Positions 1-5,131 of a stretch of 5,131 nt of DNA are shown piece by piece. The notes under the pieces were generated by a model. That model was not told where the DNA came from. It was given only the letters and a program-made list of their open reading frames with translations, and ran no database searches. How positions within the stretch are numbered: position 1 is the stretch's first letter; each line of letters begins with the position of its first letter. Origin of the DNA: Pseudonocardiales bacterium (GTDB lineage Bacteria > Actinomycetota > Actinomycetes > Mycobacteriales > Jatrophihabitantaceae); the NCBI GenBank assembly GCA_030840415.1, contig JAVEEO010000179.1, positions 1 through 5,131 of the forward strand, written 5' to 3'. The position numbers were made by a program, and so were the translations under genes.

Positions 1-491
1 CCGGCCAGTGCCTGGTAGCTGCGCCAGCTCTCCTGCTCAATCTGTACCGAGGTCAGCTCGAAGCGGCCAGCCCGACCGGCCTCGATAAGCCGGACGTGAA
101 CTTCGGCAATTGCCAGCGCATGTTCGACGAAGCGTACCGATGGTTCGCGGACACGAGTCGTGATGCCGTCACCGCTCAGGAAGCTGAGCGCCCGAACACC
201 AGCCGGAGCAAGATGCCAGACCGAGGTCGCCGATCCGGCACCGTAGCCACCGACGCGGCGGGTCAGGCGGACAGCCAAACCACAGTCATCCAAACGACGT
301 AACACCCGACGACAACCTCGAGCACCAGCAAGCGGAGAGGTGTGGTCGGCGAAGGACAGGCGTTCAATCTGCCCAGTGGTGAGAAAACGGTGTCGGTTGA
401 GGGATTCAAGGATGGACGTATCCCGAGGGCTGAGGAGTCGGGTGAGTTCGACCAGACCATCCGCGCCGCGCCCCCGCGTTCGGGTAGTCAT
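1..491 (-). CDS. Replication-relaxation family protein, N-terminal 163 residues (gene runs off the left edge)
   Basis: I read this frame by translating the reverse strand. It stays open from an ATG at 491 to the window edge, so the C-terminal part is missing. Residues about 18-100 look like a winged helix-turn-helix: a helix start with SPRDTSILESL, then RHRFLTTGQIERLSF, a recognition-type helix RGCRRVLRRLDDCGL, a wing containing RVGGYGAGS, and VWHLAPAGVR. Residues 119-135 carry the family-like stretch RFVEHALAIAEVHVRL. This pattern matches the replication-relaxation (Replic_Relax) family, which is linked to plasmid replication and DNA relaxation. From memory, the family is related to the atypical MobC-type relaxases. 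It lies directly downstream of the coupling ATPase, so a role in recognising or processing transfer DNA is likely. The ATG at 491 was chosen because the fold begins just after it. An in-frame ATG at 689 would add 66 residues and overlap the ATPase gene. Neither start has a good ribosome binding site. Family call fairly sure; start uncertain. Confidence 0.8.
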   Translation of the reverse strand, partial: MTTRTRGRGADGLVELTRLLSPRDTSILESLNRHRFLTTGQIERLSFADHTSPLAGARGCRRVLRRLDDCGLAVRLTRRVGGYGAGSATSVWHLAPAGVRALSFLSGDGITTRVREPSVRFVEHALAIAEVHVRLIEAGRAGRFELTSVQIEQESWRSYQALA

Positions 492-646
492 GACGACGAC
501 CCCGCAAGCAGGTATACATTCCTGCCGCCAGATAGCGCCTGGGGCAATGAACTCGGTGAACTCGAGGGTTTCTTCGAAGCGACGAACGGATACGCGAACG
601 GTCGTCTGACCGGACGGTCTGCGACTGGGGTACGGACGGCATTCAT
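488..646 (-). CDS. Possible 52-aa bridging ORF between coupling ATPase and replication-relaxation gene
   Basis: The 152 bases between the ATPase stop and the next likely start contain a minus-strand ORF that begins ATGAATGCC at 646. Its start overlaps the ATPase stop as ATGA, and its own TGA overlaps the ATG at 491, again as ATGA. That geometry is typical of translational coupling. The predicted peptide is rich in Ser and Pro, with a run SSSPSSLP, and has no recognisable domain. Third-position GC is about 60 percent both here and in the alternative frame that would extend the replication-relaxation protein, so composition does not decide between them. It could be a coupling leader whose translation carries ribosomes to the next gene, a small protein, or chance. 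Confidence 0.25.
   Translation of the reverse strand: MNAVRTPVADRPVRRPFAYPFVASKKPSSSPSSLPQALSGGRNVYLLAGSSS
508..525 (-). promoter_or_regulatory. Weak inverted repeat with a possible -10 box upstream of the replication-relaxation start
   Basis: GCAGG at 508-512 and CCTGC at 521-525 form a 5-bp inverted repeat with an 8-base spacer. The spacer side carries TATACC on the minus strand (516-511), preceded by TG, which looks like an extended -10 box about 20 bases before the ATG at 491. No convincing -35 hexamer is seen at the right distance. It could be a local promoter or operator giving separate expression of the downstream gene, or chance. Confidence 0.2.
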
Positions 647-2829
647 GAGGCCGCCTTCGGTCGCCGGTTGGTCGACGGTGCCGGGTCATGGCCGACCAGC
701 AGTTCGGTGAAGCTGGCCTCGATCTCATTCAGCGGTCGGCCGTAACGGGCACGGCTACGAGCCCGCAAGTCGCGTGGTGAGGACGTTGTCTTGCCGAGCA
801 GCGAGGTGACGGCTGAGGCGTACGGCGTGACCTTGTTGGCCGCCATCAGGCTGGCGTAGATCTCGTGGGCACCGAGGGCGGTGAAGTCGTCGGGTGTCAG
901 TTCGGCATGGCCCTTGGCCATAGTGGTGGCGTCTTCGTGGCCGAGCTGGAAGGCCACACGGCTGCGGGCGTTACTGAGTACGGCCGTGCGCATGGCGGTC
1001 GGCAGTTGGCCGAGGTGCTGGTGCGCCAGTGTGAAGCCGACGCCCAGGCCACGCGCTTGTGCGAGAGCGTCGGCCAGGTCGGTTGGGAGGTGTAAATAAT
1101 CTTGCAGCTCGTCTATGTAGATGCTGACTGGGTGACGCTGGTTGGCTGGGACGCCAGCTCTGGCCAGTGTCGAGCGCCAGATGTCGGCCACGACCAGCGA
1201 GCCGAGCAGTCCGGCGGCTTCCGGGCCGACCAAGCCCTTGGACAGGTTGACGAGCAGGATTTTGCGTTCAGTGAAGACCTGCGACACCTGGAACTTGGGC
1301 TGGCGTTGGCCGAGCACCGCCCGGACTTGTGGCCGCAGCAGGAAGGCTCGCAGCTTGTTCATGACTGGTGCCACCACGGCCGCCCGCTCAGCTTCAGACA
1401 AAGCCTCATACCAAGCCCAGAACGGCCCGAGGGCGACCGGATCGTTCAAGTGTTGCGTGAGTGAGCGGCGGAAGCCGGTGTTGGTCAGCAGGAGCGGCAG
1501 CATGACCAAGGACGCGTCGTCGCGACGAGCCAAGGTCAGCAGGCAGGCGTGCAAGATGTCTTGCAGTCGCGGTCCCCACGAGTCGGCGTAGAGCTGGTGA
1601 AAGACGGCCAGAACACCGTCGACCACGACCGCCGGTGGCGTACCGCCTGAGCGAGCCAACGGGTTCAGGCCGACCGGTCGATTGTCAGTAGGGTCAAGAA
1701 CAACCACGTCGTCCAAGCGAGTCTTGGGCATGCGAGCCAAAACATCGGTTACCAGATCGCCTTTCGGGTCGATAACCACCACGCCGCGCCCCTGCTCAAT
1801 ATCTTGAGTGATGAGCCGGGCGAGCAGCGTTGACTTGCCTGTTCCGGTCGGTCCGAGCACGTGCAAATGTTGCAGGCCGTCACGAGCGCCAAGCGTCAGC
1901 CAGCCGTCGAAACCAGGAGCGGTTGCCCGCCCCATGACCCGCCGATCCATAGCTGGTGCAGTGTTGGCAAGGGCGAACGCACCAGCCGTCGGTGGGAGCA
2001 AGACCGGATGTTTAGCCGGCTGTCCGGGCAACTCCCGGTCACCCAGCGGCCAGCCGGTCAACAGCAGCGATTCACTGACGCCGATGCGCAATGGCCAAAG
2101 CCACGGCGGTCGGCCATCGTTGAGCTTGGCAGCCGAATCTCGGCGTGCCCGCAATTGCACCCCCGGCGCCTCACTCGTCCGCAGCGCCCCCACCATGTCG
2201 ATAAGCAGCATCCGCCGCCGGGTCGGTGAACTGGCCTTGACGCCGAGCCGGACGGTGGCTGCAAAACCGTGTTCAGCGACCTTGGCGCGTAGTGCACTGC
2301 GTTTTTCGCCGTCAAGTAGCCCACCGTTGCCGTGCCAGACGATCTGCCACCAGGGCGCAACCACCGACGAGGGGGAATGCATCGGTACGGCCAGTGGAAT
2401 CCGGCGAGGGCCGAGGATGAGTTGCAGGACAAGCACTTCGTTCTTGTCGGCATGAATAAGTGCGGCCAACGTGGCGACCGTGACGGCATCGACTCGGCCA
2501 CTGTCGAGCGCCCGGTGCCGCGTTGACAGCTTGAGACGTAGCGCCGTGGTGACGGGTGTGCGTGCTGGTGCGGCGAGGAGTTGGGCACCGGGCAGCAGGC
2601 CAGTCAGGAGACGACCCAGGCGGCGCAATGCCGTTGGTTCCGCGCCGACCAGATAGCGGACTGAGCCCTTCGTCGCCCGCGCCTCAAACACAATTTGAGC
2701 ACTCCGCTGGTCTGCCGCGATACTTCGCAGCAACGCGACAGCTTGTTCAACCTCGAACGGCCTCGGCCAGATGATTTCCTGCCAAACGAGCCGGGAGCCT
2801 GCACCCGTCGACCCACGATTACTGCTCAT
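643..2829 (-). CDS. VirD4/TraG-like type IV coupling ATPase (conjugative DNA transfer family), 728 aa
   Basis: A P-loop ATPase of the type IV secretion coupling-protein class, which brings the relaxase-bound DNA to the transfer channel and uses ATP to move it. Visible motifs: Walker A GPTGTGKST at residues 326-334; VVVIDPKGDL at 350-359 directly after it, the usual VirD4/TraG/HerA signature; a Walker B strand SIYIDELQDY at 569-578 with the catalytic DE pair; and LAHQHLGQLP at 601-610, matching the Gln-containing motif of the TraG/TraD C-terminal region. Residues 1-320 form an unrecognised N-terminal domain, and I see no membrane helix there, unlike classical VirD4 proteins. The start at 2829 was chosen because GGAG (2839-2836) lies 6 bases upstream. 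A longer frame to 2946 would overlap most of the preceding gene and adds a low-complexity Arg/Pro stretch. It overlaps the 94-aa gene by 11 bases, implying coupled translation. A FtsK/TraB pump is less likely because the motif set is TraG-like. Confidence 0.92.
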   Translation of the reverse strand: MSSNRGSTGAGSRLVWQEIIWPRPFEVEQAVALLRSIAADQRSAQIVFEARATKGSVRYLVGAEPTALRRLGRLLTGLLPGAQLLAAPARTPVTTALRLKLSTRHRALDSGRVDAVTVATLAALIHADKNEVLVLQLILGPRRIPLAVPMHSPSSVVAPWWQIVWHGNGGLLDGEKRSALRAKVAEHGFAATVRLGVKASSPTRRRMLLIDMVGALRTSEAPGVQLRARRDSAAKLNDGRPPWLWPLRIGVSESLLLTGWPLGDRELPGQPAKHPVLLPPTAGAFALANTAPAMDRRVMGRATAPGFDGWLTLGARDGLQHLHVLGPTGTGKSTLLARLITQDIEQGRGVVVIDPKGDLVTDVLARMPKTRLDDVVVLDPTDNRPVGLNPLARSGGTPPAVVVDGVLAVFHQLYADSWGPRLQDILHACLLTLARRDDASLVMLPLLLTNTGFRRSLTQHLNDPVALGPFWAWYEALSEAERAAVVAPVMNKLRAFLLRPQVRAVLGQRQPKFQVSQVFTERKILLVNLSKGLVGPEAAGLLGSLVVADIWRSTLARAGVPANQRHPVSIYIDELQDYLHLPTDLADALAQARGLGVGFTLAHQHLGQLPTAMRTAVLSNARSRVAFQLGHEDATTMAKGHAELTPDDFTALGAHEIYASLMAANKVTPYASAVTSLLGKTTSSPRDLRARSRARYGRPLNEIEASFTELLVGHDPAPSTNRRPKAAS

Positions 2830-3103
2830 CGCGGGCTCCGTCGGAGGACGCAATTTCGCCCTGGTCGTCGTCGGTGTCGGCCGGCATGACTGCATCGGCA
2901 GCATCGATCTGGGCTTGCGCTTCAGCTTCGGCCTGGGCGATGGCAATTGCGACGATGGCTCGGCTCAGTTTGCGTAGGTCAGGTGGATCACGCCGGACTG
3001 CCCGGACGGAAATCTGCCGGTCCTGGTGACCGCGACGTCCGCGTGTCTTGCGCTGATCTGCGCGGCGGTCTCTTGGTCGATTGGGTTGTTGTGGTGTGGT
3101 CAT
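2819..3103 (-). CDS. Small basic/acidic helical protein preceding the coupling ATPase, 94 aa
   Basis: Function unknown. Three zones are visible. Residues 1-40 are strongly basic and probably disordered, rich in Arg (RDRRADQRKTRGRRG, then VRAVRRD). Residues 41-71 start PPDLRKLSRAIVAIAIAQ and continue as an Ala/Glu/Gln-rich amphipathic helix (AEAEAQAQ). Residues 73-94 are acidic (ADTDDDQGE). No membrane helix or enzyme motif is seen. It is the first gene after the strong promoter and its stop codon (TAA, 2821-2819) lies 11 bases inside the ATPase gene, so the two are co-expressed. The basic tail and charged helix suit a DNA-binding accessory factor or an adaptor for the ATPase, but this is only inference. 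The start at 3103 has an excellent ribosome binding site. A longer frame to a TTG at 3223 would begin on the promoter's -35 box and is rejected. From memory, similar small proteins precede such ATPases in other actinobacterial elements. Confidence 0.8.
   Translation of the reverse strand: MTTPQQPNRPRDRRADQRKTRGRRGHQDRQISVRAVRRDPPDLRKLSRAIVAIAIAQAEAEAQAQIDAADAVMPADTDDDQGEIASSDGARDEQ
2836..2839 (-). promoter_or_regulatory. Ribosome binding site deciding the coupling ATPase start
   Basis: GGAG on the minus strand with a 6-base spacer (CCCGCG) to the ATG at 2829. It lies inside the end of the upstream 94-aa gene, consistent with translational coupling. It supports 2829 over the upstream in-frame ATG at 2946. 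Confidence 0.6.
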
Positions 3104-3114: not shown

Positions 3115-3163
3115 TTTTCTGTCGCTCGTAGGTACACAAGGCGGTCGCGTTACGGTTGAACCC

Positions 3164-3179
3164 GCTGCACACATGCAGC
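3164..3179 (-). promoter_or_regulatory. Operator-like palindrome, copy 2 (downstream of predicted transcription start)
   Basis: GCTGCA-CACA-TGCAGC on the plus strand, a perfect 6-bp inverted repeat with a 4-base spacer. It has the same arms and spacer length as the copy at 3202-3217, exactly 38 bp away. It lies about 9-24 bases downstream of the transcription start predicted from the -10 box, so a bound repressor would block early transcription. The transcript could also fold here as a small hairpin. Symmetry and repetition favour a dimeric DNA-binding protein; the regulator itself is not recognisable in the window. Confidence 0.65.
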
Positions 3180-3194
3180 ACTGGGTTTGACTTC

Positions 3195-3223
3195 ACTATC
3201 TGCTGCATTGATGCAGCAGTCAA
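3195..3223 (-). promoter_or_regulatory. Sigma70-type promoter of the coupling-ATPase operon
   Basis: On the minus strand, -35 TTGACT (3223-3218, 5 of 6 to consensus) and -10 GATAGT (3200-3195, 4 of 6) are separated by exactly 17 bases. The predicted start is near 3188, giving a leader of about 85 bases before the ATG at 3103. The spacer is filled by a perfect palindrome, which suggests repression by blocking RNA polymerase. It would drive the 94-aa gene, the ATPase and the replication-relaxation gene. A second TTGACT on the plus strand at 3187-3192 has no fitting -10 box. Confidence 0.65.
3200..3219 (-). promoter_or_regulatory. Operator-like palindrome, copy 1 (between -35 and -10)
   Basis: CTGCTGCAT-TG-ATGCAGCAG is a perfect inverted repeat with 9-bp arms and a 2-base centre. 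Its core at 3202-3217 is GCTGCA-TTGA-TGCAGC, the same N4 architecture as the copy at 3164-3179. It fills the 17-base promoter spacer and touches the edges of the -35 and -10 hexamers, the standard position for a repressor operator. Confidence 0.7.
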
Positions 3224-3331
3224 CGACCTTTGCGGATTTCACAACACCGAACGGACTAGCGCTGCCAGGGGTGGGAGTGGCAGGAAAACCGTGGATAAAA
3301 TCTGCTGACTTCGTCACAGCAACCAGCCGGG
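3224..3331. other. Intergenic stretch upstream of the operon promoter
   Basis: These 108 bases lie between the -35 box and the stop of the 65-aa gene. Besides the weak hairpin, they contain TTATCCACG on the minus strand (3298-3290), one base from the classical DnaA box TTATCCACA. It is flanked by short A/T runs in otherwise GC-rich DNA. I see no second box and no convincing gene. An origin or transfer-origin role cannot be supported from one site. Confidence 0.3.
3297..3320 (-). terminator. Weak candidate terminator after the small-membrane-protein cluster
   Basis: On the minus strand GCT-GT-GAC-GAA-GTC-AGC (3320-3304) can fold into a bulged 6-bp hairpin, followed by AGA and then TTTT (3300-3297). 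It lies 12 bases past the stop of the 65-aa gene. The stem is short and bulged and the T run is brief, so read-through from the upstream cluster into the ATPase operon remains possible. Confidence 0.25.
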
Positions 3332-3529
3332 CTACCAGCCGCCTGAGCGGCTACGGAGGACAAGGATGGCGAGCCCAATGACTGCTGCGACAGCCACACA
3401 AGCCACCAAGATTGTCCAGACAGCCGCCACCAGTTGAGCGGCAATGTAGAGCGCCAGGGCGGCCACCAGCACTGACATGGCCGCGCCGACAAGCTTGTCT
3501 ATCCAGCCGCGCGGGTCAGAACTGGTCAT
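3332..3529 (-). CDS. Small two-helix membrane protein, 65 aa
   Basis: Function unknown. After a short polar N-terminus (MTSSDPRGWIDKL) the protein has two hydrophobic segments, about residues 14-34 and 36-58, with almost no turn between them. It ends in RSRSGGW. The basic C-terminal tail suggests it stays in the cytoplasm. Its start lies 14 bases inside the 78-aa gene and has no clear Shine-Dalgarno, so it is probably translated by coupling. The same reading frame runs upstream to 3709, but that extension is Ser/Cys/Arg-rich shadow sequence antisense to nothing useful and overlaps the 78-aa gene, so the ATG at 3529 is preferred. Placed just before a coupling ATPase that lacks membrane helices, it may be part of its membrane platform (inference). 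From memory, similar small membrane proteins occur in actinobacterial elements. Confidence 0.75.
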   Translation of the reverse strand: MTSSDPRGWIDKLVGAAMSVLVAALALYIAAQLVAAVWTILVACVAVAAVIGLAILVLRSRSGGW

Positions 3530-4234: not shown

Positions 4235-5131
4235 ATGACGGGCGACTTTGCGGTACCGGCCTACGCTGACCTGCTTGCCGACCTCAAACGGGTGCGGGAA
4301 CGAGGTCTGGGCAAGTTGCGTACCTACCGGGTTGATGCCCTACGGGCAGCCTGCATTGTTACTGACTTATCCATCACGACGGAGCAGGAACCGGCCGCTG
4401 TCGAGTCACTGTTGCGTAAGGCGATTGAGAGCCTGGGTGGCGGTGGTGAAGCCGATGCTGCCGAATACAGCCTGGGGTTGATTGGCGGCACCAAGCTCTG
4501 GCCGGCTGCGGAGCGGCGCAAGCGAGCCGCTGAGGCTTACGGCATTAGCGTCGACCGTTTCCGCAAGGCCTATGAGCTGCCGATCATGGAGCAGATTGCC
4601 GAAGGCATTTTGGCTGCCTGCCGCGAGACACATATGCGCCGGGCTCGACTGCAGCTCGAACGACGTCATCCCGCCGATTCCCGTCTCGCGGTTCAGTGGG
4701 TCGAGCGCTTCGAGGGCTACTACCGCATTTGGACGCCGGTCTGGAAGCTGGCCGCAGACATCGAGGCAACCATCGCCACCTACCGCGAACCACCGAGCGA
4801 CCACCCGCCGTGGGATCCGGACAGCACCGAGGCCTACGACCCGGTCGACCAGGCGCGGGGCTACGCCCGCTATGCCCTGCACGCCTACGCTTGGTACCAA
4901 CTGGAGTTACGCAAGTTCATGACCAAGCACGGTGGTCTGTGGCTACTGTCTGATGCCGCCGCTGAGCTGCAGGCGTCAGATGCGATCTACCGCATTGGTT
5001 GGCACAACCCGCTGAATGAGGAAGACGACTCCTGGCTCCGTCGCCATCTGGCCGATGCCAGGCATGAGGAACAAGATCACTTCAAGCAACTTCTGCTGAA
5101 CACCAGCGCTGGCAGCGCTATCCACGATGAG
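4235..5131 (+). CDS. Large protein of unknown function, N-terminal 299 residues (runs off the right edge)
   Basis: The plus-strand frame from ATG 4235 is open to the last base, and the other frames over it are shadows. No membrane helix or signal peptide is seen. Residues 10-40 (YADLLADLKRVRERGLGKLRTYRVDALRAAC) and 51-130 (a segment with ESLLRKAIESLGGG, then WPAAERRKRAAEAYGISVDRFRK and MEQIAEGIL) resemble, from memory, an uncharacterised helical N-terminal region shared by varied actinobacterial proteins. In those, AYGVS-DRFRK-like helices suggest a helix-turn-helix. Residues 150-235 are Trp/Tyr-rich (WVERFEGYYRIWTPVWKL; YARYALHAYAWYQLELRKF), and 240-299 are charged and helical. No catalytic motif is visible. 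The start has no clear Shine-Dalgarno; CACGAT 7-12 bases upstream could serve a leaderless transcript. It is transcribed away from the transfer genes, so it could be a regulator, a cargo gene or a defence-type sensor. Function unknown. Confidence 0.75.
   Translation, partial: MTGDFAVPAYADLLADLKRVRERGLGKLRTYRVDALRAACIVTDLSITTEQEPAAVESLLRKAIESLGGGGEADAAEYSLGLIGGTKLWPAAERRKRAAEAYGISVDRFRKAYELPIMEQIAEGILAACRETHMRRARLQLERRHPADSRLAVQWVERFEGYYRIWTPVWKLAADIEATIATYREPPSDHPPWDPDSTEAYDPVDQARGYARYALHAYAWYQLELRKFMTKHGGLWLLSDAAAELQASDAIYRIGWHNPLNEEDDSWLRRHLADARHEEQDHFKQLLLNTSAGSAIHDE

Follow-up and report, generated by a model that had tools for sequence, protein, structure and literature searches.

Twin palindromes in the predicted promoter of a transfer-type operon

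The window, i.e. the whole stretch of DNA that was analysed, comprises all 5131 bases of contig C541 of its source assembly, and much of the element to which it belongs is missing because the contig is so short. Two WhiB matches above the curated cut-off are present in that assembly; among 14 control genomes the family was matched in one only, Corynebacterium, and the source is therefore taken to be actinobacterial. An operon on the minus strand has the gene order 94-aa protein, TrwB/VirD4-like ATPase, Replic_Relax protein. Its features, including those of the predicted promoter, are as follows.

3236..3245, minus strand: shared upstream box, GTTGTGAAAT, 27 nt before O1, at about -57
3218..3223, minus strand: predicted -35, TTGACT, from the promoter scan; exact TTGAC stands before O1 in 14 of 20 aligned elements
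3201..3218, minus strand: O1, first operator (predicted), TGCTGCATCAATGCAGCA, within the perfect palindrome 3200-3219; fills the promoter spacer
3195..3200, minus strand: predicted -10, GATAGT, from the promoter scan and aligned relatives
3163..3180, minus strand: O2, second operator (predicted), TGCTGCATGTGTGCAGCG, spanning roughly +9 to +26 relative to the predicted start
2819..3103, minus strand: 94-aa protein, encoded by the leading gene of the operon; in related elements this leading place is taken by homologues (family F7)
643..2829, minus strand: TrwB/VirD4-like (coupling-protein-like) ATPase, 728 aa, from Pfam and profile matches
3..728, minus strand: Replic_Relax-domain protein (Pfam match), cut by the contig end

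The ATPase matched the Pfam families TrwB_AAD_bind, T4SS-DNA_transf and DUF87; FtsK_SpoIIIE, the feature of AICE-type translocators, was absent among its listed Pfam matches. VirB4 was not found among the 10 proteins of relatives and seven of the window that were scanned. Rather than transferring itself, the element may be mobilised. Close upstream of the promoter, 3332-3529 (minus strand) encodes a small hydrophobic protein of membrane type, whose relatives (family F10) occupy the corresponding position in several elements. The divergent frame at 4235-5131 (plus strand) has at least 299 aa, is cut by the contig end and is without a Pfam or NCBIfam match.

A first-pass annotation of this DNA had described two perfect 16-bp palindromes lying 38 bp apart. 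Our search of the window confirmed both, as GCTGCA-N4-TGCAGC is present at 3164-3179 and at 3202-3217, each with 0 mismatches and with a start-to-start distance of 38 bp. At 3202-3217 the symmetry continues outward, giving a 20-bp palindrome (3200-3219) with 9-bp arms. None of 200 dinucleotide-preserving shuffles of the window contained a perfect copy, as compared to the two observed; when up to 3 mismatches were allowed, the 6 window matches were at chance level (shuffle mean 5.99). In the whole source assembly (4.14 Mb, 569 contigs), the perfect pattern was present only as the two window copies, and the pattern read backwards, which served as control, gave 1 match per strand.

According to the same annotation, one palindrome fills the 17-base gap between TTGACT and GATAGT, and the other lies just past the predicted start. 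The minus-strand promoter scan agreed with this placement, with palindrome 3202-3217 filling the 17-base spacer, a predicted transcript start near 3188 and O2 just downstream of it. The scan by itself was near chance, with 1 such promoter found in the window as compared to 0.8 expected, and the promoter call therefore rests on conservation in relatives.

Layout, neighbouring genes and a shared box in related elements

Relatives of the ATPase were sought in 200 related genomes and in overlapping sets drawn from the order (397 genomes), the class (394), one family (112), two orders (3 and 13) and the phylum (396). Public genome contigs were searched as well. The regions taken for analysis were mainly those with long ATPase matches. 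The scan for twin palindromes covered 59 regions, 56 of them with upstream DNA, using 60 shuffles for each. In 19 of the 56 elements, two 18-bp palindromes spaced 34-40 bp apart beat all 60 shuffles and were counted as a significant twin. G287, with palindromes 33 bp apart and a score reached by 17 of 60 shuffles, was added to the twin set on the grounds that its palindromes agree with the others in position, promoter and arms.

The first palindrome of the twins fills the spacer of a TTGAC-like/TATAnT-like promoter. Among 20 aligned promoters, the bases ahead of O1 are exact TTGAC in 14, TTGA with a different last base in 4 and TTGC in the remaining 2; TTG stands directly at, or one base ahead of, the -35 place of O1 in all 20 (G287 included), and an ATAnT-like hexamer follows O1. 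The annotation had seen in the layout what a cooperative dimeric repressor would use; the O1-O2 spacing ranges from 33 to 40 bp across elements, and no single helical phase is kept. Read by eye, G017 has one clean palindrome and G021 a spacing of about 48. Firmicutes, Saccharibacteria and other distant ATPase relatives (L034 to L079), scanned with a stricter threshold than the 59 regions, showed the layout in none; L063 beat its 100 shuffles, but with two dissimilar palindromes 25 bp apart. Among 72,556 named plasmid records, 139 carried an ATPase relative, in no case over 80% of its length, and no close relative was found.

Two other observations concern these operons. The operon promoters of L086 (G003) and L081 (C18) retain TTGAC and TTAACT, with no significant twin, and CAATCGATTG beside the -10 is common to both; G003 gave no XRE match, and the C18 contig ends too early. 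At G094:C1 ~5155745-5157179 (L109/L091), about 1.4 kb containing a 434-aa frame in reverse orientation interrupts the ATPase gene.

Every significant twin element with enough downstream DNA (17 of 17), as well as G287, has genes for an XRE protein and an M78 peptidase downstream; the contigs of the window and of C388 stop short of this position. In each of these 18 elements the pair is on the same strand, downstream of the operon, and not counter-transcribed. The XRE protein is small (about 110-135 aa) with an N-terminal HTH in 18/18, and the M78-type (ImmA/IrrE) match is likewise present in 18/18, with a strict HExxH in all except G094b (HEFKY). With a downstream XRE defined as a same-strand match with E at most 1e-15, a twin was present in 17 of 31 elements with XRE as compared to 0 of 20 without (p 3e-5). 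G287 is counted here among the 14 XRE-bearing elements without a significant twin, which include G017, G021 and G039 with close XREs. The association omits five of the 56 elements, namely the window, C388, C18 and L069, where the contig or locus ends too early, and G026c, where the XRE is on the other side.

The genes downstream in C343, a paralogue in the source assembly, encode a methylase (N6_N4_Mtase), a ribbon-helix-helix-like protein, ArdA, an XRE-type HTH protein, an M78 peptidase and a tyrosine integrase; the ribbon-helix-helix-like protein was called by eye, Pfam giving only sub-threshold HicB matches. A serine recombinase is present in G001. The window's own repressor was not found on the other contigs of the assembly, where the search returned C343's own XRE (E 1e-19) and five weak HTH-like matches, read in part; the gene is located off the contig. 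The annotation had expected the binding protein to be encoded elsewhere on the element, and the downstream XRE of the relatives is the candidate that fits, as judged by sequence.

The annotation had also supposed that the binder may be new, which did not hold, as the candidate is of a known kind, an XRE-family, ImmR-like protein beside an ImmA/IrrE-type peptidase. A new regulator class was thus rejected on the domain and profile matches. The G770 XRE matched HTH_3 (E 1.6e-10), and its model (mean pLDDT 82, pTM 0.58) has a five-helix HTH domain, a further helical part and a low-confidence tail. Its nearest solved folds are XRE HTH domains, e.g. ClgR and SinR, with DdrO lower (E 0.003), and its full-length fold matches are loose (about 8-12 A). 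In the XRE profile search the best matches were 'Immunity repressor protein' (8bny) and SinR, and the ICEBs1 regulator 7t8i was matched with E 2.8e-4, in the HTH part only. A C-terminal acidic tail of the type GPxxGEDE is seen in most of the 22 XRE proteins of alignment A1 (L161, L112, L096 and others), and is missing or degenerate in L163 and L144. This tail could serve for recognition by a peptidase or protease.

A copy of the element's own palindrome (O3), with 0-4 mismatches of 16, precedes the XRE gene in 18/18 twin elements. No control window of the same element matched as well in 17 of them; in G094b, 13% of control windows did. A -10-like hexamer, by a loose pattern and with no chance control, lies 7-8 nt downstream of O3 in 17/18, and O3 would therefore cover the predicted -35 of the XRE promoter. 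A third copy is not clearly present before the XRE gene of G017 or of G021. Symmetry was lower in O3 (6.1 of 8 pairs) than in O1 (6.8) and O2 (6.7), with p 0.011, a weak and biased difference because O1 and O2 were chosen for their symmetry. A search that used neither palindromes nor spacing detected words common to the operon and XRE promoters in 17 of 31 elements at p at most 0.02, including G039 and G127c, both without a twin. The shared word was the upstream box in 3 of the 17 (L033, G466 and G021), and four twin elements (G094a, G094b, G287 and G311) failed this test. Elements with more divergent XREs, namely L164 (G1134), L151 (G039) and L149 (G127c), have other operator-like words common to both promoters, and the operator principle may thus reach beyond the 18-bp twin.

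With at most 1 mismatch, 12 of 20 operon promoters have the box GTTGTGGAAT (GTTGTGnAAT) starting 26-27 nt ahead of O1, and 11 of 18 XRE promoters have it starting 19-21 nt ahead of O3; in the other promoters it is weaker or absent. Its distance to the -10 is 44-46 nt (about -57) in both promoter types, though the operator is placed differently in each. Followed by CAA and TTGAC, it occurs 3 times in the source assembly, all at element promoters, and a host regulon for the box was therefore set aside. It is possible that the box is the site of a second regulator.

Letters of the predicted operators and their covariation with the XRE protein

Persistence of the palindromes in related elements had been proposed in the annotation as one test of the operator reading. 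The layout persisted and the letters did not, the arms varying in step with the XRE protein. Among 25 elements, a set including three later-found elements and two read by eye (G017 and G021), there were 14 different cores (bases 3-7 of the half-site). The CTGCA core of the window is common to only G770 and G287 among the 24 others, and the letters were accordingly rejected as the conserved feature; the O1 of G770 has the window's half-site, TGCTGCAT. Agreement at core bases was 94% between O1 and O2 within an element (24 elements), a value favoured by the twin scan, which scores O1/O2 likeness, as compared to 52% between elements (300 pairs). Three elements on three contigs of the source assembly have the cores CTGCA (window), TTCGC (C343) and TTTGT (C388); the fourth ATPase contig, C18, has no significant twin. 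Core similarity in co-resident pairs was 0.20-0.60, from four pairs only.

Operator similarity was correlated with XRE identity across 20 elements (Mantel r 0.645, p 0.0003, which is the floor of the test; kinship was ignored). The correlations with the ATPase (0.186, p 0.13) and ImmA (0.267, p 0.054) were not significant, and that with Replic_Relax (0.24, p 0.044) was lost given XRE. The values for the methylase (0.084, n 13), F7 (-0.013, n 19) and ArdA (-0.182, n 12) were low, those for methylase and ArdA not significant. In partial tests, XRE remained significant given each other protein, and none of the others did given XRE. The XRE correlation was 0.578 after removal of two near-duplicates, with no other protein significant, and 0.595 after addition of three new elements. 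On the same 14 elements, the ribbon-helix-helix-like protein gave -0.07 as compared to 0.566 for XRE. The recognition helix alone was no better than other XRE segments in tracking the operator, and in per-column covariation the strongest XRE columns showed no concentration in the HTH; common descent of repressor and operator could therefore account for part of the correlation.

Predictions were fixed before the search for four new elements, G770, G889, G1079 and G1134, each of which proved to have an XRE. Three of the four had a twin (0/100 shuffles) and a third copy (1, 1 and 2 mismatches). The strand that was searched in G1079 gave no M78 peptidase. G1134, whose XRE is divergent, had no 18-bp twin, and by eye a longer word, TGTTGACATTG-n-GTATCA, is repeated at both of its promoters. 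Of the two residue rules set in advance, the one for base 3 was right for G889 and G1079 and wrong for G770. The glutamine rule was right for G770, and its converse was wrong for G889. A residue-to-base code is not claimed, as these two preset rules held only partly and the per-column covariation was not confined to the HTH.

Candidate repressor, rival readings and known systems

On this comparison of sequences, the twin palindromes are probably the operators of an element-encoded, XRE-family, ImmR-like repressor silencing the transfer-type operon. We read them so, and as diversified like phage immunity groups, because the layout recurs, XRE genes are neighbours, a third copy is present and operator letters covary with XRE. 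The same findings (conserved layout, downstream XRE, O3 and covariation) support the annotated view that the two palindromes in the ATPase operon's promoter are operators for a repressor encoded by the element. The XRE repressor would occupy O1, within the promoter spacer, and O2, shortly after the start, leaving the transfer-type operon silent, and binding of the third copy before its own gene would give negative autoregulation. The neighbouring ImmA/IrrE-type peptidase may inactivate the repressor and so relieve silencing. Elements with different operators would not silence each other and could share a cell. The twin pair is likely the element's private off-switch, letting several such elements share one cell. 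The three such elements in the source assembly suggest that elements with different operators coexist; that several occupied one cell is what we infer, since the assembly is composite, with 4.25% contamination. A wider model is put forward tentatively, and we hold it with somewhat less than even confidence: a shared promoter chassis (box at -57, TTGAC, spacer operator and -10) would carry lineage-specific operator-repressor pairs forming at least 14 orthogonal immunity groups that decide coexistence, with a second factor at the box.

The palindromes adjoin transfer-type genes, and the elements also encode a ribbon-helix-helix-like protein and a DNA methylase, so that they might instead be sites of another element protein (ribbon-helix-helix-like, methylase, ArdA or Replic_Relax), e.g. 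a transfer-origin accessory site. This is unlikely, as palindrome similarity does not track those proteins once XRE is accounted for, O1 lies between the promoter hexamers and a copy stands at the XRE gene; the ribbon-helix-helix-like protein was rejected as binder for want of any correlation with operator similarity. Slightly less probable still is that the XRE protein is mainly an activator, or both activator and repressor, acting through O2/O3. The position of O1 in the operon promoter spacer and of O3 over the predicted -35 of the XRE promoter argues against it, since a bound protein would block polymerase there, although in some elements, e.g. C343, the -35 of the XRE promoter looks poor by eye and Rco of pLS20 is described as both stimulating and repressing its own promoter (PMC4207663). 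We give very little credence to palindromes arising by chance or acting as RNA hairpins in the leader: O2, being past the predicted start, would be transcribed, but O1 is upstream of it, the perfect match arose in 0/200 shuffles and the layout recurs in relatives.

Repressor operators of the ImmR-like kind would tie this element group to an ImmR/ImmA-like switch and name the likely repressor, although it lies outside the window. No description of this element group or its operators was found among the matches listed from the open-licence literature. What stands out is that the promoter frame is conserved and the operators are specific to each element, a natural set of repressor-operator pairs within a single frame. 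If this is true, evolution of immunity specificity outside phages becomes directly testable, and the set could yield orthogonal repressors for actinobacterial genetics.

The closest likeness is to ImmR/ImmA of ICEBs1 (Bacillus subtilis) and the ImmR-like system of TnSmu1 (Streptococcus mutans), with a repressor of about 127 residues of the XRE family beside an ImmA-type metallopeptidase (for TnSmu1, PMC10233336). As with ImmR/ImmA, sites are predicted at both the main operon (O1/O2) and the repressor's own promoter (O3). ImmR is reported to bind six sites across both ICEBs1 promoters (PMC8960796). Unlike in ICEBs1, where the pair is counter-transcribed, the XRE-peptidase pair here is downstream and in the same direction as the operon, the sequence match to 7t8i is confined to the HTH part, and the operators are twin 18-bp palindromes with element-specific letters. 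In TnSmu1, as described, the pair is not counter-transcribed as in ICEBs1 and is placed elsewhere (PMC10233336), and counter-transcription was therefore not treated as defining for an ImmR/ImmA switch.

The XRE proteins here also resemble DdrO by profile and by HTH fold. DdrO controls DNA-damage genes, a target unlike the operon here. In Deinococcus, DdrO is an XRE repressor cleaved by the IrrE metalloprotease, a work on which is cited among the references of PMC12565409. XRE autoregulation and palindromic sites are described as general (PMC12565409). XRE regulators are named in AICEs in a survey of actinobacterial ICEs (PMC3218068). Rco of plasmid pLS20 is likewise an XRE repressor with two operators at a conjugation operon (PMC4207663), matching what is predicted here for a transfer-type operon; unlike here, Rco answers to quorum sensing and loops the 75 bp between operators at overlapping divergent promoters (PMC4207663). 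In Cluster A mycobacteriophages, the repressor and its binding motif are reported to diverge together and to set immunity specificity (PMC6550527). Repressor and motif appear to diverge together in the present elements as well; unlike those phages, with many stoperators genome-wide, the present plasmid-like or conjugation-like element has three predicted sites at two promoters.
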